Assembly: GCF_900105065.1 (NCBI RefSeq)
Contig: NZ_LT629749.1
Coordinates: 372,001-436,000 of the forward strand
Origin: Friedmanniella luteola
GTDB taxonomy: Bacteria; Actinomycetota; Actinomycetes; Propionibacteriales; Propionibacteriaceae
Length of the DNA stretch: 64,000 bases
Direction of reading: 5' to 3'
In this document: one piece after another, positions 1,757-24,452 of the stretch
How positions within the stretch are numbered: the first letter of the stretch is position 1
Layout of the letters: every line of letters begins with the position of its first letter
Made by a program: the position numbers and the translations under genes
The notes under the pieces: model-generated
Seen by the model: only the letters and a program-made list of their open reading frames with translations
The model's database searches: none
Told to the model about the DNA's origin: nothing

Positions 1757-4700
1757 ATGGCGTTGACGCCTTCGCGTGCCAAGCGCGCGCTCATCACCCT
1801 GCTCTCGACCAGCATCCTCGCGGGTGCGCTGGTCGCCGCAGGTGCCGGCTCCGCCGCGGCGGCGGAGGCGGCGAGCGCGTACAACGTGGTCGACCGCAAC
1901 GCCACCACCGGCGTGACGGCCGACGCGCTGCCGACCGTGCAGATCGACGGCGTCGTCTGGGACCAGGCCATCGTCGGGGACACGGTGTACGCGGGCGGCC
2001 AGTTCGCCAACGCGCGGCCGGCCGGCGCCGCCGCCGGCACGAGCCTCACGCCGCGGGGCAACCTGCTCTCCTACAACATCCGCACCGGGGTGCTGAACAC
2101 CGGCTTCGCGCCGACGGTGAACGGCCGGATCCGCGCCATGGCCGTCTCCCCGGACAAGTCGCGGCTCTACGTCGTCGGCTCGTTCACGACGGTCAACGGG
2201 CAGAGCCGCAGCCGGGTGGCCGCCTTCAACACGAGCGACGGGTCGCTCGTCCCCACCTTCAAGCCGGTCGCCAGCTCCGACGTCTTCTCGATCGCCGTCT
2301 CGGACGACGCCGTGTACCTCGGCGGCTGGTTCGGCGCGGTCAACGGGGTCGCCCGGCAGCGGCTGGCCGCCGTCAGCCCCACCACCGGCGCCACCCTCGC
2401 CTGGGCGCCGACCAGCGACAGCACCGTCAACACCATGGCGCTGACCCCGGACCGGACGCGGCTGCTCGTCGGCGGCATCTTCGCCAACCTCAACGGCTCG
2501 CCGGCCATCGGCCTGGGCTCGCTCGACGCCACGACGGGCACCCTCTACCCGTTCGCCGCCAACCAGACGATCCAGAACTACGGCAACTCCGCCGGCATCT
2601 ACAGCCTCAAGACCGACGGCACCAACGTCTACGGCGCGGCCTACTGGTTCGGCGGCACCGGCAACTTCGAGGGCATGTTCGTCGCCGACCCGATGAGCGG
2701 CGCCCTCAAGTCCATGGCCGACTGCCACGGCGACACCTACGACGTCTCACCGGTCGGCGGCGTCGTCTACACCGTGAGCCACCACCACGACTGCTCGAAC
2801 ATGAACGGCTTCCCCGACACCAACCCGCGCAGCCGCTGGATGCGGGCCAACGCGTTCACCGTCGCGGCGACCACGACGACCGGCCCCAACAACGCCGGGG
2901 GCTACTACAGCTTCCAGGGCCAGCCGTCCTCCTCGATCGTCAACTGGTTCCCCGACGTCTCCGTCGGCTCCTACACGGGCCAGTCGCAGGGCGGCTGGAC
3001 CACCGAGGCCACCAGCGAGTACGTCGTCCAGGGCGGGGAGTTCCCGCTGGTCAACAACACCGGCCAGCAGGGCCTGGTGCGCTTCGCGATCCCCTCGATC
3101 GCCACGAACAAGCAGGGCCCGCGGGCGACGGCGGCCGAGAGCGCGCCCAGCCTGCGCGGCATCTCCGGCACCTCGGTGCGCGTCTCCTTCAAGGCGAACT
3201 TCGACCGCGACGACCAGCAGCTGACCTACAAGCTGTTCCGCACCGACCGGCCCGCCACGCCGGTGCTGACCAGGACCGTCACGTCGCAGTTCTGGAACCG
3301 GCCCACCCAGGTGTTCACCGACACCGGCCTGACCCCGGGCGCCGGCTACGGCTACTACGTCACCGCCACCGACCCGACCGGGAACACGTCCAAGAGCGCG
3401 ACGACCACCATCACCACGGGCACCGCCGTCGTCGACGACAGCCCGTACGCCCGGGCCGTGCAGACCGACGGCGCGGCCCACTACTGGCGCCTCGACGAGG
3501 CCGCGGGCGCGACCTCGTCCGTCGACTGGGCGGGCGGCAACGACCTGGTGCTCGGCGCCGGCGTGACCAGCGGCGCGGCCGGGGCCGTGCAGGGCTCGCC
3601 CGACACCGCCGCCACGTTCGACGGCGGCGCGACCGGTGTGGCGGGGCAGAGCAGCACCGAGCACAGCAGCAACACCTTCAGCGCGGAGGCCTGGTTCAGC
3701 ACCACCACGGCGACCGGCGGCAAGATCCTCGGTTTCGGGGACAGCCAGACCGGCTCGAGCGGCAGCTACGACCGGCACCTCTACATGGACAACAGCGGAC
3801 GCCTCACCTTCGGCGTCTACCCGGGCAGCGTCCGCACGGTGACCAGCGCGGGCAGCTACAACGACGGCCAGTGGCACCACGTCGTCGCCTCCCTGTCGCC
3901 CTCGGGCCTGCAGCTGTTCGTCGACGGCCTGCGGGTCGGCATCGACACCGGCACCACCACCGGCCAGGACTACCAGGGCTACTGGCGGATCGGCGGGGAC
4001 AACATCGGCAGCTGGCCCGCCCAGCCCTCGAGCAGCACCTTCGCCGGGACCATCGACGACGTCGCGATCTACCCGACCGCGCTGACCCAGACCCAGGTGC
4101 GGGACCACTTCACCAAGAGCGGCCGCACGGTCGACGTCCCGGCGGCCCCGACCGACGCGTACGGCCGGCAGGTCCACGGCGACGACCCGCTGTTCTTCTG
4201 GCGGCTCGACGAGACCACCGGCAGCACCGTCGCCGACGCCAGCGAGGCGCGGACGGCGGGCAACCTGGCCGGCGGCGTCACCCTCGGCGCGGCCAGCACC
4301 GTGACGGCCGGCAAGGCAGCCGCGTTCGACGGCAGCACCGGGACGATCGCGAGCAGCCGGACCTTCACCAACCCCACGGCCTACTCCGAGGAGGTGTGGT
4401 TCAAGACCACGACCACCAACGGCGGCAAGCTGATGGGCTTCGGGGACCAGCCGAGCGGCTTCTCGAACAACTACGACCGGCACGTCTACATGGAGAACAG
4501 CGGCCAGCTGACCTTCGGCGTGTGGACGGGCCAGGCCAACACCACGACGACCCCGGCGGCCTACAACGACGGCGCCTGGCACCACATGGTCGCCACCCAG
4601 GACGCCACCGCCGGCATGCGGCTCTACGTCGACGGCGTGCTCGCGGGCAGCAACGGCCAGACCTCGAACCAGGGCTACACCGGCTACTGGCGGGTGGGCG

Positions 4701-7402
4701 GGGACACCTCCTGGGGCGGCAGCAGCGCGTTCTTCGCCGGCTCGCTGGACGAGGCCGCCGTCTACCCCTACGCGCTGAGCGCCGCGCAGGTCGCGGCCCA
4801 CCACGACGCCTCCGGCGCGGCGGTGGACGCCGCTCCCGTGGCCTCCTTCACCTCCTCCTGCACCGACGCCACCTGCTACCTCGACGGGTCCGCCAGCAGC
4901 GACCCGGACGGCTCTGTCACGGCGTGGGCGTGGGCCTTCGGGGACGCGACCACCGGAACCGGCTCGACGGCCTCGCACACCTACGCGGCGTCCGGCAGCT
5001 ACGACGTCACCCTGACCGTCACCGACGACCAGGGCCGGAAGAGCAGCACCACCCGTCCGGTCACGGTCACCAAGCCGGTGCCGAACCAGGCCCCGGTCGC
5101 CGCCTTCACCAGCACCTGCGACGAGCGGGCCTGCACCGTCGACGCCGCCACCAGCACCGACGCCGACGGCTCCGTGGCGACCTACGCCTGGTCCTTCGGC
5201 GACGGGGACACCTCGGCGCTGCCCCGACCGACGCACACCTACACCGCCGACGGCACCTACCCGGTGACCCTGACGGTCACCGACGACCGGGGGGCCAGCG
5301 ACACCGTGACCCACCCCGTCTCCGTGCAGCGGGCGAACGTCGCGCCGGTCGCGTCCTTCACCTCCACCGCGCAGGCGCTGGCCGCCAGCTTCGACGGCTC
5401 GGCCTCCACGGACGGCGACGGCACGGTCGACGGCTACGCCTGGACCTTCGGCGACGGCACCTCCGGGACCGGTGTCAAGCCCAGTCACACCTACCCGAGG
5501 GCCGGCAGCTACGACGTCACCCTGACCGTCACCGACGACCGCGGCGCCACCAACCAGGTGACCCGGCCGGTCGCGGTGACCGCGCCGGCCGCCAACGCGG
5601 CTCCCGTGGCCGCGTTCGGCTCGACGACCTCGGACCTGAGGGTCAGCGTCGACGGGTCGGGTTCGACGGACGCCGACGGCACCGTGGCCTCCTACGCCTG
5701 GACCTACGGTGACGGGTCGACCGGGACCGGTCGGACCGACACCCACACCTACGCGGCGGCGGGCACCTACAGCGTCAAGCTGACGGTGACCGACGACGGC
5801 GGGCTGACCGGCTCGCTGACCAGGAGCGTCACCGTCACCGCGGCGCCGCAGCCGCCGGCCGGCGACGTCCTCGCCGCCGACGCCTTCGGCCGCACGGGCT
5901 CCCGCTGGGGCACCGCGGACGTCGGCGGGGCCTGGACCGACTCGGGCGCGACCTACTTCTCCACCGCCGGTGGCAAGGGCGTGCTCGCGATGACCAAGGC
6001 CGGCTCCGGCCCGACGGCGACGCTGGGCACGGTCGCCGCCACCGACTCCAGCACGACCGCGGAGTTCACGCTCGACAAGGTCGCCAACAGCGGCGGGCTG
6101 CAGATCATCCTGGCGGCCCGCAAGCAGGGCACCTCGGAGTACCGGCTCAAGGCGCGGGTGCTGTCCGACGGCACCGTCCGGCTCGGCGTCACCCAGGTGG
6201 TCTCCGGGACGGAGACCTCCCTCAAGGAGGTGCTCGTCAGCGGCCTGACCATCACCCCGGGTGAGGTGTACGAGCTGCGCTTCGACGTGACCGGCACGGG
6301 CACCACGACGCTGGCCGCGAAGCTCTGGAAGGCCACGGCCTCCGAGCCGACGGCCGCCCAGGTCAGCGCGACCAGCACCGTCGCCGGGCTCCAGACGCCG
6401 GGTGCCGCCGCGGTCCAGGGCTACCTGGCCTCGACGGTCACCAACCTCCCGGTCACCCTGCGCTTCGACGGGTACGCGGTCGCCCGGGCGGGCACCACGC
6501 CCCCGCCGGCGGCGAACGTCAAGCCGGCCGCGGCCTTCGGCTCCTCGACCTCGGACCTGAGGGTCAGCGTCGACGGGTCGGGTTCGACGGACGCCGACGG
6601 CACCGTGGCCTCCTACACCTGGACCTACGGTGACGGGTCGACCGGGACCGGTCGGACCGACACCCACACCTACGCGGCGGCGGGCACCTACAGCGTCAAG
6701 CTGACGGTGACCGACGACGGCGGGCTGACCGACTCGCTGACCAGGAGCGTCACCGTCACCGCGGCCCCGCCCGCCACCACGGTCGTGGCCTCGGACGCCT
6801 TCGGTCGGACCGGCACCCGCTGGGGGACCGCCGACGCCGGCGGCGCGTGGACCGACTCGACGGCCTTCTCGACCGCCGGGGGCAAGGGCCTGGTGACGGT
6901 GGCCAAGGCCGGATCCGGTCCCCTCGCCGCCCTCAACGGCGTCTCGGTGCTCGACTCCTCGACCACCGTGACGGTGTCCGCCGACAAGGCGGCGACCGGC
7001 GGCGGCAGCTACGTCACCGTGGCGGCCCGCAAGCAGGGCACCTCGGAGTACCGGCTCAAGGTCCGGCTGGTCGCCGACGGCACGGTGCGGCTCAGCACCA
7101 CCGTCGTCGCCAGCGGCACCGAGACGCTGCTGAAGGACAGCCTGGTCCCGGGGCTGACCTCCACCGCGGGCGACGTGCTGAAGGTGCGGTTCGACGTGAC
7201 CGGCAGCGGCACCACGACGCTCGCAGGCAAGGTCTGGAAGGCCTCGGCCACCGAGCCGGCCGCCGCCCAGATCAGCAGCACCAGCTCCCAGGCCGGCCTG
7301 CAGAGCGCCGGTGGGGTGGCCCTGACCGGCTACCTCTCGGGCAGCACCACCAACGCCCCGGTGGTCTTCGCCTTCGACGACCTGGTCGTCACCCGGCGCT
7401 GA
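1757..7402 (+). CDS. giant secreted propeller/LamG/PKD protein
   Basis: An 1,881-residue exported protein. A signal peptide (about 1-36, ending SAAAAE) is followed by a DUF5122/delta-60-like propeller (about 40-450, repeats of the type VYAGGQF...G...RLAAV). Then come an FN3-like domain (about 455-558), two LamG/concanavalin-like domains each opening with HYWRLDE or FFWRLDE (about 560-790 and 800-1020), four PKD domains (about 1025-1360), a jelly-roll-like module starting DAFGRTGSRWG (about 1370-1575), a fifth PKD domain and a second copy of the module starting DAFGRTGTRWG (about 1675-1881). PKD and LamG domains are usual adhesion or glycan-binding folds; no catalytic signature is seen and no sortase or membrane anchor follows. 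It sits inside the EPS locus, so a matrix or surface scaffold role is my inference. A strong terminator follows. Confidence 0.8.
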   Translation: MALTPSRAKRALITLLSTSILAGALVAAGAGSAAAAEAASAYNVVDRNATTGVTADALPTVQIDGVVWDQAIVGDTVYAGGQFANARPAGAAAGTSLTPRGNLLSYNIRTGVLNTGFAPTVNGRIRAMAVSPDKSRLYVVGSFTTVNGQSRSRVAAFNTSDGSLVPTFKPVASSDVFSIAVSDDAVYLGGWFGAVNGVARQRLAAVSPTTGATLAWAPTSDSTVNTMALTPDRTRLLVGGIFANLNGSPAIGLGSLDATTGTLYPFAANQTIQNYGNSAGIYSLKTDGTNVYGAAYWFGGTGNFEGMFVADPMSGALKSMADCHGDTYDVSPVGGVVYTVSHHHDCSNMNGFPDTNPRSRWMRANAFTVAATTTTGPNNAGGYYSFQGQPSSSIVNWFPDVSVGSYTGQSQGGWTTEATSEYVVQGGEFPLVNNTGQQGLVRFAIPSIATNKQGPRATAAESAPSLRGISGTSVRVSFKANFDRDDQQLTYKLFRTDRPATPVLTRTVTSQFWNRPTQVFTDTGLTPGAGYGYYVTATDPTGNTSKSATTTITTGTAVVDDSPYARAVQTDGAAHYWRLDEAAGATSSVDWAGGNDLVLGAGVTSGAAGAVQGSPDTAATFDGGATGVAGQSSTEHSSNTFSAEAWFSTTTATGGKILGFGDSQTGSSGSYDRHLYMDNSGRLTFGVYPGSVRTVTSAGSYNDGQWHHVVASLSPSGLQLFVDGLRVGIDTGTTTGQDYQGYWRIGGDNIGSWPAQPSSSTFAGTIDDVAIYPTALTQTQVRDHFTKSGRTVDVPAAPTDAYGRQVHGDDPLFFWRLDETTGSTVADASEARTAGNLAGGVTLGAASTVTAGKAAAFDGSTGTIASSRTFTNPTAYSEEVWFKTTTTNGGKLMGFGDQPSGFSNNYDRHVYMENSGQLTFGVWTGQANTTTTPAAYNDGAWHHMVATQDATAGMRLYVDGVLAGSNGQTSNQGYTGYWRVGGDTSWGGSSAFFAGSLDEAAVYPYALSAAQVAAHHDASGAAVDAAPVASFTSSCTDATCYLDGSASSDPDGSVTAWAWAFGDATTGTGSTASHTYAASGSYDVTLTVTDDQGRKSSTTRPVTVTKPVPNQAPVAAFTSTCDERACTVDAATSTDADGSVATYAWSFGDGDTSALPRPTHTYTADGTYPVTLTVTDDRGASDTVTHPVSVQRANVAPVASFTSTAQALAASFDGSASTDGDGTVDGYAWTFGDGTSGTGVKPSHTYPRAGSYDVTLTVTDDRGATNQVTRPVAVTAPAANAAPVAAFGSTTSDLRVSVDGSGSTDADGTVASYAWTYGDGSTGTGRTDTHTYAAAGTYSVKLTVTDDGGLTGSLTRSVTVTAAPQPPAGDVLAADAFGRTGSRWGTADVGGAWTDSGATYFSTAGGKGVLAMTKAGSGPTATLGTVAATDSSTTAEFTLDKVANSGGLQIILAARKQGTSEYRLKARVLSDGTVRLGVTQVVSGTETSLKEVLVSGLTITPGEVYELRFDVTGTGTTTLAAKLWKATASEPTAAQVSATSTVAGLQTPGAAAVQGYLASTVTNLPVTLRFDGYAVARAGTTPPPAANVKPAAAFGSSTSDLRVSVDGSGSTDADGTVASYTWTYGDGSTGTGRTDTHTYAAAGTYSVKLTVTDDGGLTDSLTRSVTVTAAPPATTVVASDAFGRTGTRWGTADAGGAWTDSTAFSTAGGKGLVTVAKAGSGPLAALNGVSVLDSSTTVTVSADKAATGGGSYVTVAARKQGTSEYRLKVRLVADGTVRLSTTVVASGTETLLKDSLVPGLTSTAGDVLKVRFDVTGSGTTTLAGKVWKASATEPAAAQISSTSSQAGLQSAGGVALTGYLSGSTTNAPVVFAFDDLVVTRR
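5625..5844. repeat. 220-bp duplicated PKD-coding segment, copy 1
   Basis: This stretch matches 6546-6765 at an offset of 921 bp with about two mismatches by eye (GCC/ACC near 5696 and GGC/GAC near 5810). The offset equals 307 codons, one PKD domain plus one jelly-roll module, so it marks a recent in-frame module duplication or gene conversion. Confidence 0.9.
6546..6765. repeat. 220-bp duplicated PKD-coding segment, copy 2
   Basis: Second copy of the segment at 5625-5844. The jelly-roll modules that follow each copy are far more diverged, so homogenisation seems limited to the PKD part. Confidence 0.9.
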
Positions 7403-7409
7403 GCCGGGC

Positions 7410-7460
7410 TCCTCCCACCCGGCGGGCCGCCCGTCCGCGGACCCCGACCGGGTGGGAGGA
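7410..7460 (+). terminator. hairpin terminator after the PKD protein gene
   Basis: Arms TCCTCCCACCCGG (7410-7422) and CCGGGTGGGAGGA (7448-7460) form a perfect 13-bp stem with a 25-nt GC-rich loop, eight bases after the stop codon. There is no U tract, as is common in high-GC genomes. It would separate the PKD gene from the lipoprotein gene. Confidence 0.7.
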
Positions 7461-7497
7461 TCGGCGCCTGACCTCGGGGGAACGAGAGAGGCCAGAC

Positions 7498-8109: not shown

Positions 8110-8124
8110 CCCGGCGGCAGCCCG

Positions 8125-8130
8125 TAGCGT
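8125..8130 (+). promoter_or_regulatory. leaderless-type -10 box for PIG-V-like gene
   Basis: TAGCGT ends 6 nt before the ATG at 8137, the spacing expected when transcription starts at the start codon. No Shine-Dalgarno sequence precedes the ATG. Confidence 0.5.
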
Positions 8131-8136: not shown

Positions 8137-9390
8137 ATGGACTCCGCCCTCCGGCTCGGGACGACCCTCGGGCAGCTGACGGACCGGGTGCTCGGGGCGT
8201 TCGGCTCCGGCGTCCGCCGCTTCACCACCTGGCGGTGGTGGCTGCAGGTGCTGGTGGTCTGGGCCCTCGGCCGCCTCTTCACCCTGCTGCTGGTGCTGAC
8301 CGTGGCCCGGATGCAGGGACCGAACCCGTGGACCACCGAGCGGCCGGGCTACCTGGACTACATCGACGGCTGGGACGCCGGCTGGTACCACAAGATCTTC
8401 GACGAGGGCTATCCCCGCGTGCTGCCGCGCGACACCGCCGGGCAGCTCGACCCGAACCAGTGGGCCTTCTACCCGGTGCTGCCCGGCCTGGCCAAGCTCC
8501 TCAACCTGGGCACCGGCGTCTCGTGGCTGGTGCTGGGGCCCCTGATCTCCCTGCTGGCCAGCCTCGCCCTGTGCCTGCTGCTCCACCGGCTGTTCGCCAG
8601 CCGCGCCAGCGCCGGCACCGCCCTGATGGCCGTCGCCCTGTTCTCGTTCCAGCCGGCCGCGCCGGTGCTGCAGTTCGGCTACGCGGAGTCGCTCGGCCTG
8701 GCGCTCCTCGTCGGCGTGCTGCTCTGCCTGGTGCACGAGCGCTACTGGACCGCCGTCCCGCTCGTGGTCGTGCTCAGCCTCACCCGCCCGACGAGCGCGC
8801 CCCTCGCGCTGACCATGCTGCTGGTCGCGGTCGGCTGGTTCCTGCTCCGCCGCACGCAGCCGGTCGCACGCCGACGCTGGCTGGGGCTGGGCGTCCTCAC
8901 CGTGGTGACCGGCCTGAGCACCTTCCTCTGGCCCGCGGTGATGGCGGTCGTCACCGGCGACCCGGACGCCTACTTCGAGACCGAGGCCGCCTGGCACGGC
9001 AACAGCGCCGTGCTGCCCGGCGAGCTGTGGGCCAACATCGGCATCCGGCTGTTCGGCAAGCCGCTGGGCCTCCTGGCCCCCGTCGTCGTCGTCCTCGGCC
9101 TCGTGCTGGTGATGGCCACCCGCACCGTCCGCCGGCTCGGTCCGGTGCTGTACCTCTGGACGGCCAGCTACCTGCTGTACCTGCTCGGGGTGGTCGCCCC
9201 GAACGGCGCCCTGCCCCGGCTGCTGCTGCCGGCCTTCCCGCTGCTGCTGGCGGCGGCGATGGCGTCCCGGTCGAGGGCCTACCGGGTCACGCTGGTGATC
9301 GCCAGCCTCGTCGGTCAGGTCGTCTGGGTGGCCTGGCTGTGGCACTGGTCCGGCGTGGGGCTGCACGGCGCCGCGGAGTCCAACCCCTAG
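8137..9390 (+). CDS. PIG-V-like integral membrane mannosyltransferase
   Basis: A 417-residue multi-spanning membrane protein with about ten hydrophobic helices. The conserved loop motif GWDAGWYHKI near residue 76 and NQWAFYPVLP soon after match the PIG-V/GT-C type mannosyltransferases, in which an aspartate of this first loop acts with a polyprenyl-phosphate sugar donor. A second feature is the LTRPTSAPLAL segment typical of this family. Such enzymes glycosylate lipids or secreted proteins outside the membrane. In this setting it could decorate the EPS or the neighbouring secreted PKD and beta-helix proteins; which of these is not shown by the sequence. It is transcribed after the lipoprotein gene with its own -10 box. 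Confidence 0.75.
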   Translation: MDSALRLGTTLGQLTDRVLGAFGSGVRRFTTWRWWLQVLVVWALGRLFTLLLVLTVARMQGPNPWTTERPGYLDYIDGWDAGWYHKIFDEGYPRVLPRDTAGQLDPNQWAFYPVLPGLAKLLNLGTGVSWLVLGPLISLLASLALCLLLHRLFASRASAGTALMAVALFSFQPAAPVLQFGYAESLGLALLVGVLLCLVHERYWTAVPLVVVLSLTRPTSAPLALTMLLVAVGWFLLRRTQPVARRRWLGLGVLTVVTGLSTFLWPAVMAVVTGDPDAYFETEAAWHGNSAVLPGELWANIGIRLFGKPLGLLAPVVVVLGLVLVMATRTVRRLGPVLYLWTASYLLYLLGVVAPNGALPRLLLPAFPLLLAAAMASRSRAYRVTLVIASLVGQVVWVAWLWHWSGVGLHGAAESNP

Positions 9391-15404: not shown

Positions 15405-15439
15405 GAGGCGGTCTGCGGGGTGCGGGCTGACGCAGCCAT
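15401..15439 (-). CDS. 12-residue leader ORF coupled to the Wzy-like gene
   Basis: On the reverse strand an ATG at 15439 opens MAASARTPQTAS and stops at a TGA that shares three bases with the GTG start of the polymerase. GAGGAG at 15452-15447 lies 7 nt before this ATG, an ideal ribosome binding site. The peptide has no attenuator-like codon run, so its likely role is to deliver ribosomes to the weak downstream start. An alternative is a sequencing error that splits the true N-terminus of the polymerase. Confidence 0.45.
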   Translation of the reverse strand: MAASARTPQTAS

Positions 15440-15611
15440 GGGCGTGCTCCTCGTGAACGGTCCGGCGTCCCGACGCCGGCGGCCCGGGCCGGCGGACGCC
15501 CGGTGGTCCCCGGGCGTCGCGGACCGGGGACGGGTGGTCGCGGCCCACTCTAGGTGGTCCGGCCGGCTCGCGCCGACGACCACGCGGGCGGCCCTGCTCA
15601 CGACCAGACCC

Positions 15612-17552
15612 TCACGACCCGGTCCCCGCGACCAGCGCCCGGGCCCGTCGGTAGGCGAGCAGGTGCAGGTCCGCGGCCGTCGACCAGTCGCGGGCGGAGA
15701 GGTCGGGGCGTCCCGTCGGGCCCCCGGCGAGCCGGGCCAGGGTCGACGTCAGGTCCTCCGCGGTCAGCCCGCCCGCGTAGGTGTGGATCCACCCCGGCCC
15801 CACCTCCGCGGCCAGCTGCGTGTTCACCTCGTTGTCGGGCACCAGGACCGGACGGTCGAGGGAGAGGGCGGCCAGCACGCCGCCGGAGTTGTGCATCTCC
15901 CGGTAGGGCAGCACCACCAGCTGCGCCGCCGACGCTGCCGCCACCAGCTCGGCGTCGGTGAGGAACTCCAGGTGCGTGCTGATCCGCGGGTCCGGACCGG
16001 CCAGTGCCGTCAGCTCCGCCCGCAGGTCCGGGCTGGAGGGTCGGCCCCCGACGAACAGGCTCAGCCCCGGGTCGGTCGCCGCGCGGAAGGCGGACAGCAG
16101 GGTGTCGACCGCCTTGTAGCGGCGGATGAGCCCGAAGTAGGCGAGCCGGCCGGGCACCGGCTCCGCGCGCGGGTGGGCGGCGAACCAGTCCCGGTAGTGA
16201 CCGTGCACGACCGTCTCGTGGGGTCGCTCGGCCAGCTCGGTGCTCGTGTTGATCCGGATCAGCAGCGTCGTCCAGCGCTGGAACCAGCGCAGCAGCACCG
16301 TCTCGCGCCGGCTGATCCCCGAGGGCAGCTCGAGGTTGTGCACCGTCCGGACCACCGCGGTCCCGCGCAGCCGGAGGCGGAGCAGCAGGGCCACGAAGAG
16401 CAGCTGGCGGAGCGCCTTCTTCACCGGCGTGCTGCCGGTGACCAGGATCTCCGGCCAGTGCGCGTGGAACACGTCGTGGTCACCCGTCAGCGCCCGGCGC
16501 CAGCTGAAGGTGCTGAGCGTGACGTCGGGGTGGGCGTCCAGGCAGTCCTTGAGCATCCAGATGTAGGGGTTCGTCGTCGGCCGCGGGTCGGGGAAGGACT
16601 GCAGGACCCGCACCGGACCGGCGGCGTCCGCGGTGCGGGTCGTCCGGGCGGCCCGGCGGAGGAGGCGCAACCCGTCCAGGGTGCCCCCGACCATCGCCGT
16701 CCACGGGGCGGTCGAGGTGAGCAGCTGGCGCCGGCCGCCGCGCAGCACGATGGCGTACGCCTCGGGCAGCGCGGTCGCGACCCAGCGTCGCCGGTCGGCC
16801 GCGTCGAGGTGCTGACCGGCGAACAGCAGCCGGTTGCGGATGTTGTAGCGGTAGTAGGTGGCCGACTTGGCCCGGCCGCCGCCCTCGCCCTGGGTGCCGC
16901 CCTCGTCGTGGACGGCCTCGGCCTCGCGGACGACCCGCAGGGAGCCGCCCGCCTCCCGGACCCGGCGGGACAGGTCGACGTCCTCCCAGTAGAGGAAGTA
17001 GCGGTCGTCGAAGCCGCCGACGGCGTCCCAGAGCCGGCGGCTGAGCAGCAGGCACGCCCCGCTCAGCCACATCTCGACCCGGGGCTCCGGGTCGGTCGGG
17101 CGCTTGCGGGTGGCCCGCATGCTGCCGCGGTCGAGGTAGAGGTCGGTGCCGTCGGACCAGACCCGGCCGTCGACCGTCCGCACCACCGGCCCGACCATCA
17201 CCATCGGGTCGGCGGCGACGACGCGCTGCAGCCGCTCCAGGGCCGAGCCGTCCAGGCGCGCGTCCGGGTTGAGCAGCAGCAGCTGCTCGGCGCCGGCGTC
17301 GAGCGCCGCCCGGGCCCCGAGGTTGACCCCGGAGCCGAAGCCGACGTTGGTCGGGCTGGCGACCAGCAGCCAGCCACGCGCGGCGCAGAGCGTGCGGACG
17401 GCGGCGAGCTCGGCCGCGGAGGTGAAGTTGTCGACCACCACGACGTCCAGGTCGGGCGACGCCGCGGCGACGGCCGTGAGGTTGGTCGCCAGCAGCGCCG
17501 ACGAGCCGTAGTTGACGACGACGGCCGCGCAGCGGGGGAGGGGGCCGCTCAC
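15612..17552 (-). CDS. GT2-GT4 bifunctional glycosyltransferase fusion
   Basis: A 646-residue protein with two glycosyltransferase units in one frame. Residues 1 to about 295 form a GT-A, family 2 enzyme of the rhamnosyltransferase/WbbL kind, with VVVVDNFTSAAEL, the LLLNPDARLDG donor motif near residue 95 and FLYWEDVDLSRRV near residue 187. Residues from about 314 (VRVLQSFPDPRP) form a GT-B enzyme of family 4 or similar, with YFGLIRRYKAVDTL near 470 and the donor-binding REMHNSGGVLAA near 553. The GTG start overlaps the flippase stop as GTGA, so it is the last gene of a coupled operon. A fusion implies two consecutive sugar additions to the lipid-linked repeat unit; donors are unknown. Confidence 0.8.
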   Translation of the reverse strand: MSGPLPRCAAVVVNYGSSALLATNLTAVAAASPDLDVVVVDNFTSAAELAAVRTLCAARGWLLVASPTNVGFGSGVNLGARAALDAGAEQLLLLNPDARLDGSALERLQRVVAADPMVMVGPVVRTVDGRVWSDGTDLYLDRGSMRATRKRPTDPEPRVEMWLSGACLLLSRRLWDAVGGFDDRYFLYWEDVDLSRRVREAGGSLRVVREAEAVHDEGGTQGEGGGRAKSATYYRYNIRNRLLFAGQHLDAADRRRWVATALPEAYAIVLRGGRRQLLTSTAPWTAMVGGTLDGLRLLRRAARTTRTADAAGPVRVLQSFPDPRPTTNPYIWMLKDCLDAHPDVTLSTFSWRRALTGDHDVFHAHWPEILVTGSTPVKKALRQLLFVALLLRLRLRGTAVVRTVHNLELPSGISRRETVLLRWFQRWTTLLIRINTSTELAERPHETVVHGHYRDWFAAHPRAEPVPGRLAYFGLIRRYKAVDTLLSAFRAATDPGLSLFVGGRPSSPDLRAELTALAGPDPRISTHLEFLTDAELVAAASAAQLVVLPYREMHNSGGVLAALSLDRPVLVPDNEVNTQLAAEVGPGWIHTYAGGLTAEDLTSTLARLAGGPTGRPDLSARDWSTAADLHLLAYRRARALVAGTGS

Positions 17553-19090
17553 CGGTTCTTCCCCGTCCCCTTGCGGACGATCTGGAGCACCCCGGTGATG
17601 TCGCGGCGGAACATCGGCACCAGCAGGAACGCCAGCGCGTAGACGACGCCGGCGGCGGCGACGGCGACCGGCAGCTGCACCCAGCGGCCCCACTGCGCGG
17701 TCAGCTCGCAGGCCCCGAAGGCACCGGCCGCGAGGAACGCGGTCAGGACCAGGATCCGGCCCGCCCCGACGAACAGCGGACCCACGTCCACCGGCGCCTT
17801 GCGGGACAGCCACCAGAACGACAGCGGCCAGGCCAGCGCGGGGGCCAGCGCGTAGCCCCAGGCGACCCCGGTCACGCCCCAGGTGCTGCCGACCAGGATG
17901 CAGGCGATCTTGATCGTCACCGTGATCATCGTGTACTGCAGCAGCTCCTTGGTGAGCCCGTGCGACAGGTAGATCCACAGCCCGACGTAGGCGAGGCTCT
18001 GGAACACCCCGGCCACCGCCAGCAGCCGCAGGATCGGCTCGACCGACAGCCACTGCCGGCCCAGGAAGATCGACGTGATCGGTCCGGCGGCGCCGATGAC
18101 CACCCCCAGCCCGGCCACCAGGGTCAGCCCCAGGGCGGACTGGCCGCGCTGGATGTAGGCGTTCGAGGCCGCCCGGTCGTCGCGCAGCCGGGAGAGCACG
18201 GGCAGGGCGACCTTCGTGGTGGGCGCTCGGAGCTGACCCAGCGGGGTCATCAGCAGCTGGAACGCCCGGTTGTACAGGCCCAGGGCCTCCGAGCCGAAGC
18301 GGGTGCCGATGGTGAGGGAGTCGATGTTGTTGCCCAGGTAGCCGACGAACAGCGAACCCGCGAGCTGCCAGCCGAACCGGAAGAGGTCCCGCATCGGCGC
18401 CCGGCGGGGCAGGCGGGGGATCCACCGCGCGGTCACGGCGTTGCCGACCAGCAGCACCACGGCCATGGTCAGCTGCTGCACGGCGAGGGCCCAGTAGCCG
18501 GCGCCCTGGACGGCGGCCACGATGGCGACCACCAGCGAGATCGCGGGGGCCGCGACGTCCACGACGGCCAGCGTGGTGAAGCGCAGGCGCCGGTTCAGGT
18601 CGGCCCGGTACTGGGTACCCATCCCGTTCAGCACGAAGACGAAGGCGAGCACGTGGGTGAGGCCGACGAGCTCCTCGTGGCCGTAGACCGCGGCGACCAG
18701 TGGGGCGGTGAAGAAGACCAGCACCGTGAAGGCCAGGCCCGCGCCGGTGTTGATCCAGAACAGGTTGTCGCGCTGGGCACGCGACAGCGTCTTGGCCTGC
18801 ACGGCCGCCGAGGACAGCCCGAAGTCCCGGAAGATCTCGGCGACGCCGATGATCGCGGTCACCATCGCCACCAGGCCGTAGTCGCCCGGCGTCAGCAGCC
18901 GGGCGAGGACGACGACGCCGACCACCTGCAGCAGGATCTTGACGCCCTGCCCCCCGACCGTGATCAGGGCGCCCCGGGCGGCGGTGCGGCCGAGGGTGCC
19001 GCGCTGGGCCTGGGCGGCGGCCCGCTCGGCGGCGGCCTCGGCCTCGGCCTCGTCGAGCGGCGGCTGCGTGAGCGACGGGTCGGTGCTCAT
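17549..19090 (-). CDS. Wzx-type polysaccharide flippase
   Basis: A 513-residue membrane protein of the MOP/PST superfamily, with about fourteen hydrophobic helices. It would flip the undecaprenyl-linked repeat unit across the membrane. After a charged N-terminus rich in Ala/Glu (residues 1-33) the protein shows GALITVGGQGVKILLQVVGVVVLARLL-type sequence and the PGDYGLVAMV motif common to this family, and later GLYNRAFQL and WLSVEPILRLLAVAG. The ATG shares the sequence ATGA with the stop of the FrhB-like gene, and the gene's own stop overlaps the next start by 4 bp, so it belongs to one translationally coupled unit with its neighbours. Confidence 0.88.
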   Translation of the reverse strand: MSTDPSLTQPPLDEAEAEAAAERAAAQAQRGTLGRTAARGALITVGGQGVKILLQVVGVVVLARLLTPGDYGLVAMVTAIIGVAEIFRDFGLSSAAVQAKTLSRAQRDNLFWINTGAGLAFTVLVFFTAPLVAAVYGHEELVGLTHVLAFVFVLNGMGTQYRADLNRRLRFTTLAVVDVAAPAISLVVAIVAAVQGAGYWALAVQQLTMAVVLLVGNAVTARWIPRLPRRAPMRDLFRFGWQLAGSLFVGYLGNNIDSLTIGTRFGSEALGLYNRAFQLLMTPLGQLRAPTTKVALPVLSRLRDDRAASNAYIQRGQSALGLTLVAGLGVVIGAAGPITSIFLGRQWLSVEPILRLLAVAGVFQSLAYVGLWIYLSHGLTKELLQYTMITVTIKIACILVGSTWGVTGVAWGYALAPALAWPLSFWWLSRKAPVDVGPLFVGAGRILVLTAFLAAGAFGACELTAQWGRWVQLPVAVAAAGVVYALAFLLVPMFRRDITGVLQIVRKGTGKNR

Positions 19091-20337
19091 CGGCCCGCCC
19101 CGGGGGTGCTGCGGGCGCGCTGGACGCGGCGGAAGCTGCCCTTGGCCGTGCGGGCCGTCTCGCGCCAGTCGGCCAGGGCGAGCCGGGCCAGCCCGAAGCC
19201 GCGGTAGCGGGGGACCGGTCGGCCGGCGAGCCGGGCACCGGCGAGCCGCCCCAGCAGCGTGCTCCGCCGGGAGACCTGCAGCGGCTGGACGTCGGCGAGG
19301 GCGTCGAGGTCCAGCGACCGGCCGACCAGCACCCCCGCGGCGAAGGCGCGCTGCAGGACCTCGTGCCCGCGCGGGGTGCGGGCGAGCACGGCGCTGCAGC
19401 CGTCGCCCTCGGCGAACACGGGGTAGCCCCGGGCGTCGGTGTGCCAGAAGTCGGCGGCGGTGATGTCGCTGCTCTCACCCACCCCGTCGGGGCAGATCTT
19501 GCAGCGCCACTGGGTCGTCTTGCCGAGGTGCTGGCCCCACGACTCGTCGTAGGTGGTGCGGACGGTGCTGCCGTCCTCGGCCTCGGCGGTGAAGTGGCCG
19601 GGCCAGCCCCGACCGCGGTACCAGAGGTCACGGAGCGGGGCGCCCGCGGGCACCCCCAGCTGGGCGACCAGGGCGTCCGTGGCGTGCTGGCTCGGGGTGC
19701 CGGCGCAGAAGAAGGAGAGCAGCAGCGGCGGCGACCCGGCGTCGGCGGGGGCGCCGTCCAGCAGGGCCCGGGCGGCGGAGATCTCGCAGGGCTTCCCGAC
19801 CAGCCCGGTGCCGGGGGCGAGCGCCCCCGGGGCGGCGACCGAGGCCACCGGGGCGTAGCGCGACCCGGCGGAGGCCAGCGCCTCCGCGCGGCTGGTGATG
19901 GTGACCGACACGGTCCGCCGGGGCTCGGCCGCGGCGGCCCGGGCGCCGGTGAAGGAGGCCTGCTCGCCGTTCTCGGTGAGCCAGGCGACCAGAGCGGTCA
20001 GCGTCCCGCCGCTGCTGCCGCGGTGCCGGATCTCCGGGTCGGCGGCCCAGGCCTCCCAGCCGCTGACGACCGGGCCGAGCGTCGGGTGCACGGTGGCCCC
20101 GGCCGGCCGCGGGGAGACGACGCGGCGGCCCGGGCAGATCCGGTCGAACGTGGCGTCGGCCCCGGGCTCCGGCGCCGGTTCGCGCGCGCTGCGCACCGGA
20201 CGGGCGTAGCCGTCGGCCGACAGGGCCATCTCCAGACCCGGGTCCAGCAGCGTGCAGGCCCCGCAGCCCGAGCAGTTCGCGGTGTCCACGACCCGGCTGA
20301 CGGCGCGGTCCAGCGCCTCGGCGGTGGCCGCGACCAT
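19087..20337 (-). CDS. FrhB/FdhB-like coenzyme F420 domain protein in the EPS operon
   Basis: A 416-residue protein matching the coenzyme F420 hydrogenase/dehydrogenase beta-subunit family. Near the N-terminus is a ferredoxin-type cysteine cluster, CSGCGACTLLDPG (about residues 20-32); the central part shows GSSGGTLTALVAWL and LVGKPCEISAARAL; a second cysteine pair follows in WRCKICPDGVGESSDI near residue 279. FrhB-type proteins use F420H2 or flavin and iron-sulfur clusters. Homologues next to polysaccharide pyruvyl transferases occur in many EPS and cell-wall glycan clusters, where their substrate is mostly unproven. It starts one base inside the stop of the pyruvyl transferase (TGATG) and its own stop overlaps the flippase start. 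Confidence 0.85.
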   Translation of the reverse strand: MVAATAEALDRAVSRVVDTANCSGCGACTLLDPGLEMALSADGYARPVRSAREPAPEPGADATFDRICPGRRVVSPRPAGATVHPTLGPVVSGWEAWAADPEIRHRGSSGGTLTALVAWLTENGEQASFTGARAAAAEPRRTVSVTITSRAEALASAGSRYAPVASVAAPGALAPGTGLVGKPCEISAARALLDGAPADAGSPPLLLSFFCAGTPSQHATDALVAQLGVPAGAPLRDLWYRGRGWPGHFTAEAEDGSTVRTTYDESWGQHLGKTTQWRCKICPDGVGESSDITAADFWHTDARGYPVFAEGDGCSAVLARTPRGHEVLQRAFAAGVLVGRSLDLDALADVQPLQVSRRSTLLGRLAGARLAGRPVPRYRGFGLARLALADWRETARTAKGSFRRVQRARSTPGAGR

Positions 20338-21440
20338 CAGCGCCGCCCCGCCGCCACCGCGTCGACCCGGCCGGCCAGGGCCCCGGTGGCCAGCGCGAGC
20401 GTGCTCGCGGCCCGCTCCCGGACGGCCACGACCTGCGCCCGCAGGTCGTCCCGGGCGGCGATCTCCGCCACCACGGCGGGCGCCTCGTCGGCGGAGGTGC
20501 GCAGGTCGACGACGTGCTCCCAGCCCAGGTCGGCCATCAGCGGGGCGAACTTGCGCGAGTAGGCCAGCGGGATCGCCGGGGTGCCGACCGAGAGGGCGTT
20601 CAGGCAGGCGTGCATGCGGGAGCCGATGACCAGCTCGGCCCCGGCCAGCATGGTGCGGATGTCGGTCAGCGACATGGGGACGAGCACCTCGGCGGTGGGC
20701 GCGTGCGCGTCCCGGAACTCCTCGACGGCCGGCACGTCGTCGTCGGGGTTGTCCGAGGGCAGCACGTGGGCGAGCAGGCTGACGGTCCGCCCCGCGGCCA
20801 CCAGCCGGTCGTGCACGTCGGTGACGGTGCGCCGGTAGGCGGCGGCGTCGACGTGCGGGCCCGGCTGCCACAGCAGCCCGGAGACGTTGAGGACGACGTC
20901 GCGACGCGTCGTCGGCTCGGGCACGTCGAGGGCGAACACGACGTCGGTCGTCAGGACGTCCACCGGGCGCCCGAGGTCGGCCGACGCCTGCGCGCTGATG
21001 CTGTCGCGGGCCATCACCACCGACGCGGTGCGCAGGGAGCGCTGCGCGAGGGCCCGCGCCCGGCGGGAGCCGAACGGCCCGATCGTCTGCGGGCTCAGCA
21101 CGACGGGCACGCCGACGCGCGCGGCGAACTCGGTCGTCGCGCACATCGCGGAGAGCCGCTTGAGGCCGTAGATGTCGGCGAAGGAGTCACCGGCGCGGGT
21201 GTCCATCACCAGGTCGAACCCGCGGAACCAGTCCGCGAGGCCCCGCTGGCGCAGCACCGCCTCCTTGGCGACCTCGGCCACCGAGCCGAGCCGGACCGGC
21301 GCCGTCCGGGCGCCGTAGTTGTAGAACACGAACTCGGCGTCCGGCCAGACGCGTCGCGTCAGCGCCTCCGTGCCCGCACCGAGAACTCTCACCCCGAGGT
21401 TTGGGGACCGGTCGTCGGCCCAGATGACCAAAACTCTCAT
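20337..21440 (-). CDS. polysaccharide pyruvyl transferase family protein
   Basis: A 367-residue protein of the CsaB/WcaK polysaccharide pyruvyl transferase family, which adds ketal-linked pyruvate from phosphoenolpyruvate to sugars of surface glycans. Visible landmarks are the Rossmann-like start VLVIWADDRSPNLGVRVLG, the SPQTIGPFGSRRARALA segment, MARDSISAQASADLG, and the C-terminal VIGSRMHACLNALSVGTPAIPLAYSRK that is diagnostic of the family. The ATG at 21440 has AAGGA ten bases upstream; a GTG at 21443 is the alternative. It is the first gene of a tightly coupled set with FrhB-like, flippase and glycosyltransferase genes. A TACAGT -10 box is at 21475-21470 on the same strand. Confidence 0.88.
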   Translation of the reverse strand: MRVLVIWADDRSPNLGVRVLGAGTEALTRRVWPDAEFVFYNYGARTAPVRLGSVAEVAKEAVLRQRGLADWFRGFDLVMDTRAGDSFADIYGLKRLSAMCATTEFAARVGVPVVLSPQTIGPFGSRRARALAQRSLRTASVVMARDSISAQASADLGRPVDVLTTDVVFALDVPEPTTRRDVVLNVSGLLWQPGPHVDAAAYRRTVTDVHDRLVAAGRTVSLLAHVLPSDNPDDDVPAVEEFRDAHAPTAEVLVPMSLTDIRTMLAGAELVIGSRMHACLNALSVGTPAIPLAYSRKFAPLMADLGWEHVVDLRTSADEAPAVVAEIAARDDLRAQVVAVRERAASTLALATGALAGRVDAVAAGRR

Positions 21441-21469
21441 CACTGCCCGTCCTTGCTGGTAGGCGCATC

Positions 21470-21475
21470 ACTGTA
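21470..21475 (-). promoter_or_regulatory. -10 box for the pyruvyl transferase operon
   Basis: Reverse-strand TACAGT about 30 nt before the ATG at 21440, following a hairpin terminator that ends the PKD gene. It suggests that the four-gene EPS operon is transcribed on its own. Confidence 0.45.
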
Positions 21476-21544
21476 CGGGCCGGATGAGACGGTCGTGTCA
21501 CACACGTCAGTGCCCGGTGGTGCGCTCGTGGCCCCCGAGGCCAG

Positions 21545-21570
21545 CGGGCGGCGCCCCGGTGCGCCGCCCG
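21545..21570 (-). terminator. hairpin terminator after the second PKD protein gene
   Basis: CGGGCGGCGC (21545-21554) and GCGCCGCCCG (21561-21570) form a perfect 10-bp stem with a 6-nt loop, about 25 nt past the stop codon of the PKD gene that is read toward it. Confidence 0.65.
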
Positions 21571-21593
21571 TCGTCGTGCCGGTCAGGTGCCCG

Positions 21594-24452
21594 TCAGTTC
21601 CCCGTCCGCCGAGCCGTGAGCTCGCTCACGGAGAGGCTGACCGGGGCCGTCGAGGTGCCCGACAGGTAGGCCCGGACGGCCACACCGGCCGGCGCCTGCA
21701 GGCTCGCCGTGGTGTCCGTCGCGGTGGCGGCCCACGCCGTCGGCTCGGTGGTGCCGGCGGCCCAGACCTTGGTCCGCAGGTTGGTCGTGCCGCTGCCCCA
21801 GGCCTGGATGCGCACCGCGTAGTCCTGCCCCGCCACGAAGGTCCCGGGCAGCACCTTGCTGGCCAGGCTGGTCTCGGTACCGGCCTCGTTGCGGTTCAGG
21901 TAGACCACCATCGTGCCGCTGGCCTGGACCCAGATCTTGGCGTGGTAGCCGTTCGTCTGGTCACCGCGGACGATCGCCCGGGTGTACTGGCCGCCGCCGG
22001 TCGGCGCCTTGTCGAACGCGAAGGTCAGCTGCAGGTCGGTGTCGGTGGAGGAGATCGGCAGCCGGGCGGTCGGGCCCGAGCCGGCGGCCGCCATCTTGAT
22101 GACGCCCTGGCCGGCGCCGACCGTGAACAGGGTGGTGCTGCCGCTGTAGGTCCAGGCGCCGCCCGTCTCCGCGCTGCCCCAGCCGGAGGCCGAGGTGCGC
22201 TCGAACGTGTCGGCGGCCAGCACGTCGTTGGCCGGCGGCGCCGCCACGGTCAGCTGCTTCGTCACGGTGCCGGTCGCGCCCTGGTCGTCGGTCACCGTCA
22301 GCTTGACGCTGTAGGTGCCCGCGGCGGCGTAGGTGCGGCTGGCCGTGCGGCCGGTCGCGGTGGAGCCGTCGCCGAAGGTCCAGGCGTAGGAGGCGACGGT
22401 GCCGTCGCTGTCGGTCGAGCCGCCGCCGTCGACGCTGACCGTCAGCCCGGTGGCGGTGCTGGTGAAGGCCGCCGTCGGGGCGGCGTTCGCCGGCGGGGCC
22501 GACGCCACGGTCACCGACCGGGTGGTGGTGCCGGTGGCGCCCTGGTTGTCGGTCACCGTCAGCCTGACGCTGTAGGTGCCCGCGGCCGCGTAGGTGCGGC
22601 TGGCGGTGCGGCCGGTCGCGGTGGAGCCGTCGCCGAAGGTCCAGGCGTAGGAGGCGACGGTGCCGTCGGCGTCGGTCGAGCCGCCGCCGTCGACGCTGAC
22701 CGTCAGCCCGGTGGCGGTGCTGGTGAAGGACGCGGTCGGGGCGGCGTTGCCGCTGGCCGAGACGCTGTTCGAGACCGGGCTGAGCAGCTCGTTGCCGAAC
22801 GGGTCGGTGACCCGCACCTGGTAGGTGTGGCTGCCCGCCGGGGCGGTCCGGTCGTCGACGGTCTGCGCCGGCAGCGTCCAGAAGTTGCTGTCCACCGTCC
22901 GGGTGTCCACCAGGGCCTCGGCCGCCGTGCCGCGGTCGCGGTACAGCTGGTAGGTCAGGCGCTGGTTGTCCTTGTCCCAGGCCGCGCCGTAGGTGACGCG
23001 GACGGTGCCGGCTGCGGGCACGGAGGCGGTGGTGGCCGGCGGGGCGCTGCGGACCGGCACCGTGCCGAGGTACTGCGGGCCCACCTTGTTCGGGGCGACG
23101 CCGGGCGCCGTGTCGGGCAGCGCGTAGCGGGTCAGGCCCTGCTGGGCCTTGCCGTTGACCGTGGGGAACTCGCCGCCGAGGGCGATGTAGCGCCCGCCGC
23201 TGACGACGTTCCAGGCCGCCTGGTACTGCTGGCTCGCGGTGCCGATGCCCAGCTCGGGGTACCAGTGCAGCATGGTCGGCGCGGGCCGGCCCTTGTAGTT
23301 CCAGCCGTAGGCGTTGGGCCCGTTGTTGAGCCCGGTCGGCGCGGTGGTGAAGGCGCCGGCCGGCTGCCAGCGGGTCCGCGGGCTGGTGTCGCCGAAGCCG
23401 CCGATCGAGCGGCAGTCGTGGGTGTGGCTGACCGTGTACGTGACGTCGCCGACCGGCTCCACGTCGTAGGTGTCGCCCAGGCAGTCGACCATCCAGCGGA
23501 TCGCGCCGTTGGCCGGGTTGAGGGAGAAGCTGCCCTCGAACAGGCCGCCGGCGCCGAAGGCGAAGCCGCTGCCGTAGACCCAGGTGCCGTCGTTCGTCAG
23601 CGAGTTGATCGCCCCCTTGCCGGAGTCCCGGAGGGTGCCGCTGGCCGCCCAGGGCAGGTTGGTCCCGGAGGTCGCCCCCACCGCACCGAGACCGTAGACG
23701 GCGGCGCTGTTGAGCGTCGAGAACTGGCCACCGATGACGACCTTGGTGGCGTCCGGGGTGGTGGTCAGCGACCAGACGTAGCCGTCGTCGGCCTTCGGCG
23801 CCCAGGACAGCAGCGCGCTGGTGCTGGTGCTGAAGGCGGCGAGCCGCTTGCGGGGGGCGACGACCGTGCCCGAACCGGCGCTCTCGAACGCGCCGCCGAC
23901 GTAGAGGGTGCTGGCCGTCGCCGTCAGCGCCTTGACCTGGCCGTTGGCGATGGGCGCGAAGCCGGGGGCCAGGGCCCCGGTGGCGGTGTCGAAGGCGGCC
24001 AGGTGCTGGCGTGACTGCCCGTCCACCGTGGTGAAGTCGCCGCCCACGTAGACGCGCTTGCCGTCGGGCGAGGCCGTGATGGCCAGGCCCGCCGCGTTCA
24101 GGGTGTGGTTGAAGGAGGCCACCCGCTCACCGGTGGTGATGTCGTAGGCGAAGAGGTGGCCGACGCTGATCTCGGTCGGTCCGCCCGCCCACATGCCCGG
24201 CGGCCGGGCCTTGGTGAAGTCGCCGGTCGCGTAGACGGTGGTGCCGACGACGACCTGGCTCCAGACCACGCCTGTCAGCTGCCAGGTGGGCAGCGGGTCG
24301 ACCGAGACGGTCGTGGGCAGCGTGGCCGCGACCGGCCGGGTGTCCGCCGTGGCCGCCGGCGCCGCGCCGAGGCCGAGGGCGACGACGGCCGTGGCCAGCC
24401 CCCCGGCGGTGAGCCTGGACACGCGGGACCAGCGGCCCTGCAGGATTCCCAT
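21594..24452 (-). CDS. secreted propeller/PKD protein, second copy
   Basis: A 952-residue exported protein that is a shorter relative of the 1,881-residue protein at 1757. Order of parts: signal peptide (about 1-36, ending PAATADT), DUF5122-like propeller (about 40-450; LTGVVWSQVVVGTTVYATG aligns with the other protein's start), FN3-like domain (about 455-565), two PKD domains of 87 residues that are nearly identical at DNA level (offset 261 bp), and a C-terminal jelly-roll-like module opening DTFERTSASGWG (about 741-952). No LamG domains are present. The ATG has GAGGGGAATC upstream; an earlier in-frame ATG would put charged residues before the signal peptide. It follows the lipoprotein and sugar transferase genes on the same strand. 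Function as an EPS-associated surface protein is inferred. Confidence 0.8.
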   Translation of the reverse strand: MGILQGRWSRVSRLTAGGLATAVVALGLGAAPAATADTRPVAATLPTTVSVDPLPTWQLTGVVWSQVVVGTTVYATGDFTKARPPGMWAGGPTEISVGHLFAYDITTGERVASFNHTLNAAGLAITASPDGKRVYVGGDFTTVDGQSRQHLAAFDTATGALAPGFAPIANGQVKALTATASTLYVGGAFESAGSGTVVAPRKRLAAFSTSTSALLSWAPKADDGYVWSLTTTPDATKVVIGGQFSTLNSAAVYGLGAVGATSGTNLPWAASGTLRDSGKGAINSLTNDGTWVYGSGFAFGAGGLFEGSFSLNPANGAIRWMVDCLGDTYDVEPVGDVTYTVSHTHDCRSIGGFGDTSPRTRWQPAGAFTTAPTGLNNGPNAYGWNYKGRPAPTMLHWYPELGIGTASQQYQAAWNVVSGGRYIALGGEFPTVNGKAQQGLTRYALPDTAPGVAPNKVGPQYLGTVPVRSAPPATTASVPAAGTVRVTYGAAWDKDNQRLTYQLYRDRGTAAEALVDTRTVDSNFWTLPAQTVDDRTAPAGSHTYQVRVTDPFGNELLSPVSNSVSASGNAAPTASFTSTATGLTVSVDGGGSTDADGTVASYAWTFGDGSTATGRTASRTYAAAGTYSVRLTVTDNQGATGTTTRSVTVASAPPANAAPTAAFTSTATGLTVSVDGGGSTDSDGTVASYAWTFGDGSTATGRTASRTYAAAGTYSVKLTVTDDQGATGTVTKQLTVAAPPANDVLAADTFERTSASGWGSAETGGAWTYSGSTTLFTVGAGQGVIKMAAAGSGPTARLPISSTDTDLQLTFAFDKAPTGGGQYTRAIVRGDQTNGYHAKIWVQASGTMVVYLNRNEAGTETSLASKVLPGTFVAGQDYAVRIQAWGSGTTNLRTKVWAAGTTEPTAWAATATDTTASLQAPAGVAVRAYLSGTSTAPVSLSVSELTARRTGN

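Follow-up and report, generated by a model that had tools for sequence, protein, structure and literature searches.

A recurrent module of predicted lectin-like fold in secreted proteins of a Friedmanniella luteola polysaccharide locus

The locus and its shared module

The DNA considered here is a stretch of 64,000 nucleotides from the actinobacterium Friedmanniella luteola (contig NZ_LT629749.1, positions 372,001 to 436,000), hereafter called the window, which includes a locus for the production of an exopolysaccharide (EPS). Genes for glycosyltransferases, a Wzx-type flippase, a Wzy-like membrane protein, a polysaccharide pyruvyl transferase and an initiating sugar-phosphate transferase (Bac_transf) surround the genes for three secreted proteins (Table 1), as the first-pass annotation of this DNA had recognized. 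These comprise two proteins with PKD repeats, of 1,881 and 952 amino acids (aa), and a right-handed beta-helix protein, all with N-termini that were judged by eye to resemble signal peptides. The three share a module of ~200 aa, the copies of which in the window are encoded in or beside the EPS biosynthesis locus.

The module was recognized through the motif D-x-F-x-R...WG-x-A...GG-x-W, which a six-frame scan of the window located at positions 5879, 6794 and 9798 of the plus strand and 22211 of the minus strand, and nowhere else. Copies 1 and 2 occupy residues ~1371-1579 and ~1676-1881 of the 1,881-aa protein, copy 3 forms the N-terminus of the beta-helix protein and copy 4 the C-terminus of the 952-aa protein. 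The alignment of the four copies spans 215 columns with 28 invariant positions, and identity to copy 1 is 63% for copy 2, 29% for the beta-helix copy and 42% for the copy of the 952-aa protein. Scored against a profile built from the other three, the four copies reach 228, 219, 63 and 164 bits, respectively, compared with 4.4 bits at most for shuffled controls (200 shuffles per copy), which rules out chance similarity. The four occurrences in three secreted proteins reported by the first-pass annotation are thus homologous sites. The GTxE strand and closing GYL segment that it ascribed to every copy do not extend to the beta-helix copy, where GGAATV replaces GTxE(T/S) and GYVS replaces GYLS.

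The carriers were said to differ in all other respects, a description that fits the beta-helix protein and fails for the two PKD proteins. The latter have in common a 512-aa region composed of a beta-propeller and an fn3-like part (44% identity) as well as PKD repeats, and on sequence grounds they are paralogues. The 1,881-aa protein additionally contains LamG_3 domains, the best stretch of which covers residues 862-1013. The propeller of both proteins (1871-3436, plus strand; 22773-24338, minus strand) has cysteines and an HxH motif that are invariant in 61 relatives (C285, H304, H306, C308), and it may, to go by these residues and its model, be an enzyme or metal-binding domain in its own right. 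A propeller copy without the module is interrupted by one in-frame TGA in both G000:C1:342394-343914 and G018:C1:2836902-2838425, and is possibly a decayed gene.

Table 1. Module copies, their carriers and surrounding genes, in coordinates of the window.
Feature	Coordinates	Strand	Remarks
Module copy 1	5867..6493	+	Motif scan, alignment, AlphaFold2 model, leave-one-out score
Module copy 2	6782..7399	+	Motif scan, alignment, leave-one-out score; reaches the stop codon
Module copy 3	9786..10400	+	Motif scan, alignment, leave-one-out score; directly after the signal-peptide-like stretch of the beta-helix protein
Module copy 4	21597..22223	-	Motif scan, alignment, leave-one-out score; reaches the stop codon
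1,881-aa secreted protein	1757..7402	+	Signal peptide, beta-propeller, fn3-like region, LamG_3 x2, PKD x4, module, PKD, module
Propeller and fn3-like region of the 1,881-aa protein	1871..3436	+	AlphaFold2 pLDDT 95.4; Foldseek: WD40-type propeller
Secreted right-handed beta-helix protein	9666..12158	+	Beta_helix, NosD and DUF1565 matches; likely start ATG 9666, open frame from 9573
952-aa secreted protein	21594..24452	-	Signal peptide, beta-propeller, fn3-like region, PKD x2, module; paralogue of the 1,881-aa protein (by sequence)
Propeller and fn3-like region of the 952-aa protein	22773..24338	-	
Glycosyltransferase family 2	655..1596	+	Locus context
417-aa membrane protein	8137..9390	+	~9 hydrophobic segments (simple hydropathy count); no Pfam match
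Acyltransferase_3	12250..13386	-	Locus context
Hexapeptide-repeat transferase	13514..14092	+	Locus context
Wzy-like membrane protein	14094..15548	-	~11 hydrophobic segments; Wzy_C match under the curated cut-off
Glycosyltransferase 2 / glycosyltransferase 1 protein	15612..17600	-	Frame as scanned, approximate start
Wzx-type flippase (Polysacc_synt_3)	17549..19090	-	
FrhB/FdhB-like protein	19087..20400	-	Frame as scanned, approximate start
Polysaccharide pyruvyl transferase	20337..21443	-	
Initiating sugar-phosphate transferase (Bac_transf)	25280..27181	-	

The structure of copy 1 was predicted with AlphaFold2 from an alignment of 124 natural modules. The resulting model is all-beta, with a mean pLDDT of 97.7, a pTM of 0.92 and 14 strands of at least three residues, in agreement with the jelly-roll appearance noted from the sequence, and it has the ConA-like lectin/glucanase fold, a two-sheet antiparallel beta sandwich of ~200 aa. 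Legume lectins, GH16-type glucanases and GH43 enzymes make up most of the 50 Foldseek matches listed against the PDB, which also include the evolved-Dit CBM2 of phage J-1 (5ly8, rank 7) and CBM66 (TM-score normalized by target 0.66-0.77). E-values among these 50 matches range from 3.9e-7 to 1.8e-5, at sequence identities of 6-14%, and the TM-score reaches 0.77 for CBM66. We take the name ConA-like lectin/glucanase to denote the superfamily that holds these structural neighbours (CBM66, GH16, GH43 and legume lectins).

By sequence, no known domain was found in Pfam, NCBIfam or the PDB sequences. Six Pfam families were matched at E 0.01 among the 124 members, each by one or two members and none consistently; GH16- and PL7-type Pfam families found no match in the same set, and Laminin_G_3 (PF13385) matched neither the four modules nor the 124 relatives. 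The module matched no solved PDB chain at E 1, the three whole window proteins matched no catalytic family in NCBIfam, and no carbohydrate-active domain was recognized in the carriers scanned, that is, the window and own-genome proteins. Going by titles, the domain is not described in the open-access literature searched. The expectation that the module has no established name is therefore upheld, and no known domain of different function matched the 124 members consistently in Pfam. The closest named family is phrog_24476, called 'phosphodiesterase' in PHROGs, which is matched by 82 of the 124 modules. Copy 1 aligns with its C-terminal part (830-1026 of 1066), and the name probably stems from another part of the phage protein. 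The module can thus be confidently predicted, from its modelled structure, to represent a small unnamed domain family with the ConA-like beta-sandwich fold.

Conservation was compared among propeller (144), helix (15) and phage (48) copies. Core residues D6, F8, R10, W15, G16, G21, G22, W24, R86, Y93, P162 and W165 are kept at 73-100% in all three types, while W155 and E161 are nearly invariant in propeller and phage copies and mostly lost in helix copies.

Occurrence, carriers and linkage to polysaccharide genes

The F. luteola genome (4.72 Mb, single contig) encodes eight copies of the module passing E 1e-6, including the four of the window. A fifth (G000:C1:368377-369000), borne by a further beta-helix protein (L118), is found 3 kb upstream of where the window begins, and the others belong to two beta-helix proteins (L119, L120) and a metallophosphoesterase-PKD protein (L121). 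Three of the eight lie outside the locus. One of the beta-helix proteins outside the EPS locus (L119:8432-11113, minus strand, at ~316 kb of the genome) lies near an aminotransferase gene, and nearby frames resemble, by eye, permeases of sugar ABC importers.

In a draw of 197 Propionibacteriaceae genomes the module is present in at least 38, a lower bound with up to 15 candidates scored per genome, and a further count gave at least 14 of 396 genomes, likewise a lower bound with up to seven candidates scored per genome. Loci of several actinobacterial families, referred to here as named loci, were collected with the motif pattern, the best 80 of 247 matches corresponding to 74 distinct loci. 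Together with the window these contain 115 module frames, of which 88 include a propeller, four a beta-helix and one a phosphoesterase, the remaining 22 showing PKD or LamG parts at most. The beta-helix carriers match Beta_helix, NosD or DUF1565.

Placement of the module is strongly terminal. In 102 of the 115 frames it lies no more than 15 aa from the end of the frame; the available DNA truncates none of these 102, so that they have no space for a further C-terminal anchor. The module often follows PKD repeats, and PKD-module units occur in tandem. In helix-type frames the module instead precedes the helix (14/15). The exception is a beta-helix protein of L085 (10730-13489, minus strand), whose C-terminal module pairs in the module tree with a propeller-type module (82/90), a placement suggestive of module exchange.

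The proposal that matches to the module would cluster with Wzx/Wzy loci was examined in 28 related genomes. These are 28 of the 38 module-bearing genomes, with 92 of their 115 module matches; ten genomes of at least 70 contigs each were excluded by hand, and full rescoring of the 28 returned the same 92 matches. The markers were the 36 strongest of 85 Wzx matches (E 7.5e-24 or better) together with, by intention, all 59 Bac_transf matches. The 92 matches form 44 loci, and 26 of these lie within 30 kb of Bac_transf or a strong Wzx gene, where 2.4 would be expected at random. A second comparison employed the named loci, 56 of which (of 74) contain at least one of seven EPS-type genes, versus 7 of 40 randomly chosen 20-kb stretches; if only Bac_transf, Wzx or pyruvyl transferase is counted, the figures are 34/74 and 2/40. 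These control stretches are all from Propionibacteriaceae, the named loci cover several families and vary in length, the iteration of the marker profiles drew on the same pool, and one of the seven control matches (L217) overlaps the module locus of genome G018. Both comparisons agree with the proposal. The association of the module with polysaccharide loci is strong throughout the Propionibacteriaceae and extends, in other actinobacteria, to EPS-type genes.

PKD domains were considered as an independent control for this linkage and discarded, since most of the PKD_4 matches listed in the 28 Propionibacteriaceae genomes sit in module proteins; those listed outside them are at G052:C63, G179:C7, G098, G114 (856715) and G074 (3818463). 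Propeller proteins lacking the module were used in their place, and give a fairer comparison than random positions do. Among 47 full-length propeller matches (of 75), 37 of 39 with the module are near a marker versus one of eight without it. Two of the former (G059:C16:189697 and G114:C1:253304) are probably mere neighbours of a module gene, and after they are moved the counts become 35/37 and 3/10 (p 6e-5). Matches from the same locus and from sister species are not independent, and the p-values are overstated accordingly.

A related branch in phage tails

Relatives of the module also occur in the tail regions of phages. A pattern scan of IMG/VR gave 53 contigs with the module in 56 frames, and none of the 56 matched the propeller, helix, phosphoesterase, LamG or PKD queries. 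Among 34 frames picked by hand from the 56, 33 match phrog_24476, as expected of a family that contains the module, and 26 match phrog_5313. On six viral contigs the neighbouring genes encode tape-measure proteins (L153, L161 and, weakly, L178), a tail-spike-like protein (L175), major tail protein and endolysin (L143) and major head protein (L187). In the annotated phage KimJongPhill the module gene lies two genes after the tape-measure gene and another module is encoded in the minor tail gene that comes next; a minor tail protein of the same phage is the best match to the window module in a viral structure library (TM 0.85 on the query). Two module copies share a 1,569-aa frame on L138, a viral contig of 105 kb with a low G+C content, and the module is thus not confined to high-GC actinobacteriophages.

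With a viral copy as query, 16 records (13 phages by name) were matched among 50,697 phage records, all of them from Streptomyces phages. Seven of the matches are annotated as minor tail protein, two as virion structural protein, one as carbohydrate binding domain-containing and six as hypothetical. With a window copy as query, the sole phage record found was MT835675.1 (L231), a 'Bacteriophage sp.' scaffold from human faeces without annotation. It was not counted as a phage, as its propeller, LamG, PKD and module matches are like those of bacterial proteins, and it is probably a mislabelled bacterial contig. In genus g33, with genomes of 6-11 Mb, 22 of 121 genomes match the module (up to 25 candidates scored per genome), and eight of the ten module loci fetched from 25 matches are of the phage-tail type. 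Judging from these sequences, the module seems to serve phages whose hosts rarely possess the EPS-locus proteins, an argument for either a more widespread ligand or an altered specificity.

Carbohydrate-binding domains are found in the tails of other phages. Evolved Dit tail proteins with such domains are reported to aid adsorption to EPS-positive lactococci (PMC10688798), a case that serves here as an analogy, and phages Alon and Tapuz are described as having CBM-like tail domains (PMC13175485).

Candidate functions of the module and comparison with known systems

On balance the module is probably a glycan-docking tag that keeps secreted proteins in the surface glycan layer, and a glycan feature widespread in actinobacteria is a likelier ligand for it than the polymer of this single locus. 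Propeller-PKD and beta-helix proteins would be exported via their signal peptides, after which the module, in many cases the final domain of the protein but near the start in most beta-helix proteins, would grip the surface glycan non-covalently and so retain them in the polysaccharide coat. Propeller, LamG and PKD parts could then serve as arms that span or cross-link the matrix, tandem modules might raise avidity, and the beta-helix part, which probably acts on glycans, may trim or modify them. In the tail proteins of actinobacterial siphophages, the related branch would aid attachment to a layer of this kind. Taken as a whole, the picture of one portable lectin-fold tag that docks matrix propeller-PKD proteins, beta-helix glycan enzymes and a phosphoesterase to a shared surface glycan, with a sister branch gripping that layer on behalf of actinobacterial siphophages, is offered tentatively, as a possibility that is less likely than not.

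Several observations weigh against a docking tag. None of the seven markers is found in the available DNA of 18 of the 74 named loci, and 18 of the 44 module loci are farther than 30 kb from a marker, partly through contig ends. The 88 propeller-bearing frames among the 115 constitute one orthologous propeller-PKD family, so that the propeller could carry the EPS linkage, and a propeller-PKD protein without the module (G052:C63) is encoded 9 kb from a Bac_transf gene. The ConA-like fold also serves enzymes and protein-protein contacts, and with W155 and E161 lost in helix copies not all copies need have the same ligand.

In the reading of the first-pass annotation, the three proteins could form a polymer-specific matrix system, with the module specific for the polymer of its own locus and each locus having modules tuned to its own product. 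The strong linkage to EPS loci favours such tuning, as does the greater identity of LamG-propeller modules within a locus (0.537, n=30) than between loci (0.414, n=7927). The latter is, however, also as expected of recent gene duplication, and LamG-propeller and helix modules compared with one another are no more alike within a locus (0.291, n=25) than between loci (0.301, n=1880). In a tree of 115 of 239 module sequences, for which the bootstrap was unsettled, 14 of 15 helix copies fall in one clade (99/96), a single branch sets the 40 phage copies apart (85/79; recovered in 88% of bootstrap trees), and labels of protein type cluster beyond all shuffles. This lack of likeness across types within a locus, together with a tree ordered by protein type, points to type-specific descent and argues against polymer-specific tuning. 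The copies outside the F. luteola locus and the sister branch in phage tails, in Streptomyces phages and in the loci of genus g33, argue in the same direction. A polymer-specific set in the sense of that annotation therefore finds no backing in the relatedness of the modules, and we consider tuning of this kind unlikely. That every module binds the local EPS through some shared feature would be compatible with these sequence relationships.

A structural or assembly role without sugar binding, whether as a protein-protein contact, a C-terminal cap or a means of multimerization, would suit the frequent position of the module after PKD repeats and in tandem PKD-module units, and ConA-like domains can be structural. 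The cargo is unrelated and attached at either end, the module being N-terminal in beta-helix proteins, C-terminal in the metallophosphoesterase and present in phage tail proteins, and this fits a portable binding tag more readily than an interface dedicated to one partner; a purely structural domain is accordingly regarded as quite unlikely. Linkage by descent is another alternative, in which the module simply belongs to an ancient propeller-LamG-PKD family and the EPS-related function resides in the propeller. The predominance of the propeller among module frames, its confident model with invariant cysteine and HxH residues, and the module-less propeller-PKD protein near a Bac_transf gene all speak for this. 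It is rendered improbable by the module-less propeller proteins, which are mostly far from EPS markers even after the two doubtful proteins are reassigned, and by the beta-helix proteins, which lack a propeller and carry the module in the same loci. That the module is itself a glycosidase or lyase of the GH16/PL7-like superfamily is very improbable, for although it has the fold class of GH16 lichenases and R86, Y93, E161, D171 and D202 are mostly conserved in propeller copies, no catalytic family was matched in Pfam by the 124 members or in NCBIfam by the three whole window proteins, E161 is absent in 60% of the 15 helix copies, and both a tandem arrangement and a terminal position are usual for binding modules.

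The interest of the putative glycan-docking module lies in the linkage to EPS loci combined with its use in phage tails. As a marker domain it would identify EPS-linked secreted proteins by sequence, and so provide candidates in many genomes, and the presence of the same family in phage tails suggests that matrix proteins and phage adsorption may be connected. If the tag is indeed shared, its ligand would be a common actinobacterial surface sugar motif, a single handle for both matrix assembly and phage adsorption. To our knowledge little is known of how proteins are retained in the polysaccharide layers of Gram-positive actinobacteria.

What is new here is the domain family, unnamed in the libraries searched; its fold class is known, and its use, probably as a binding tag, would be a familiar one. 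CBM66, the GH16 and GH43 enzymes and the legume lectins have the same predicted fold as the module, at the low identities given above. Laminin_G_3 is ConA-like according to its Pfam description and occurs in the same secreted 1,881-aa protein, without a sequence match to the module. Among phage proteins, phrog_24476 resembles the module through its C-terminal part. The evolved-Dit CBMs of siphophages, including CBM2 of the phage J-1 Dit and the evoDit of skunaviruses, are carbohydrate-binding inserts in the phage adhesion device; unlike these, the module is found in a different tail protein (of the phrog_5313 type) and is common to cellular EPS-locus proteins, and the comparison with evoDit is one of analogy. 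Secreted matrix proteins that bind the EPS of the producing cell are known from other bacteria, among them CdrA and LecB with Psl, Bap1, RbmC and RbmA with VPS, and the Rap proteins of Rhizobium, some of which are encoded beside EPS genes, but these consist of different domains and belong to a different phylum from the module proteins described here.

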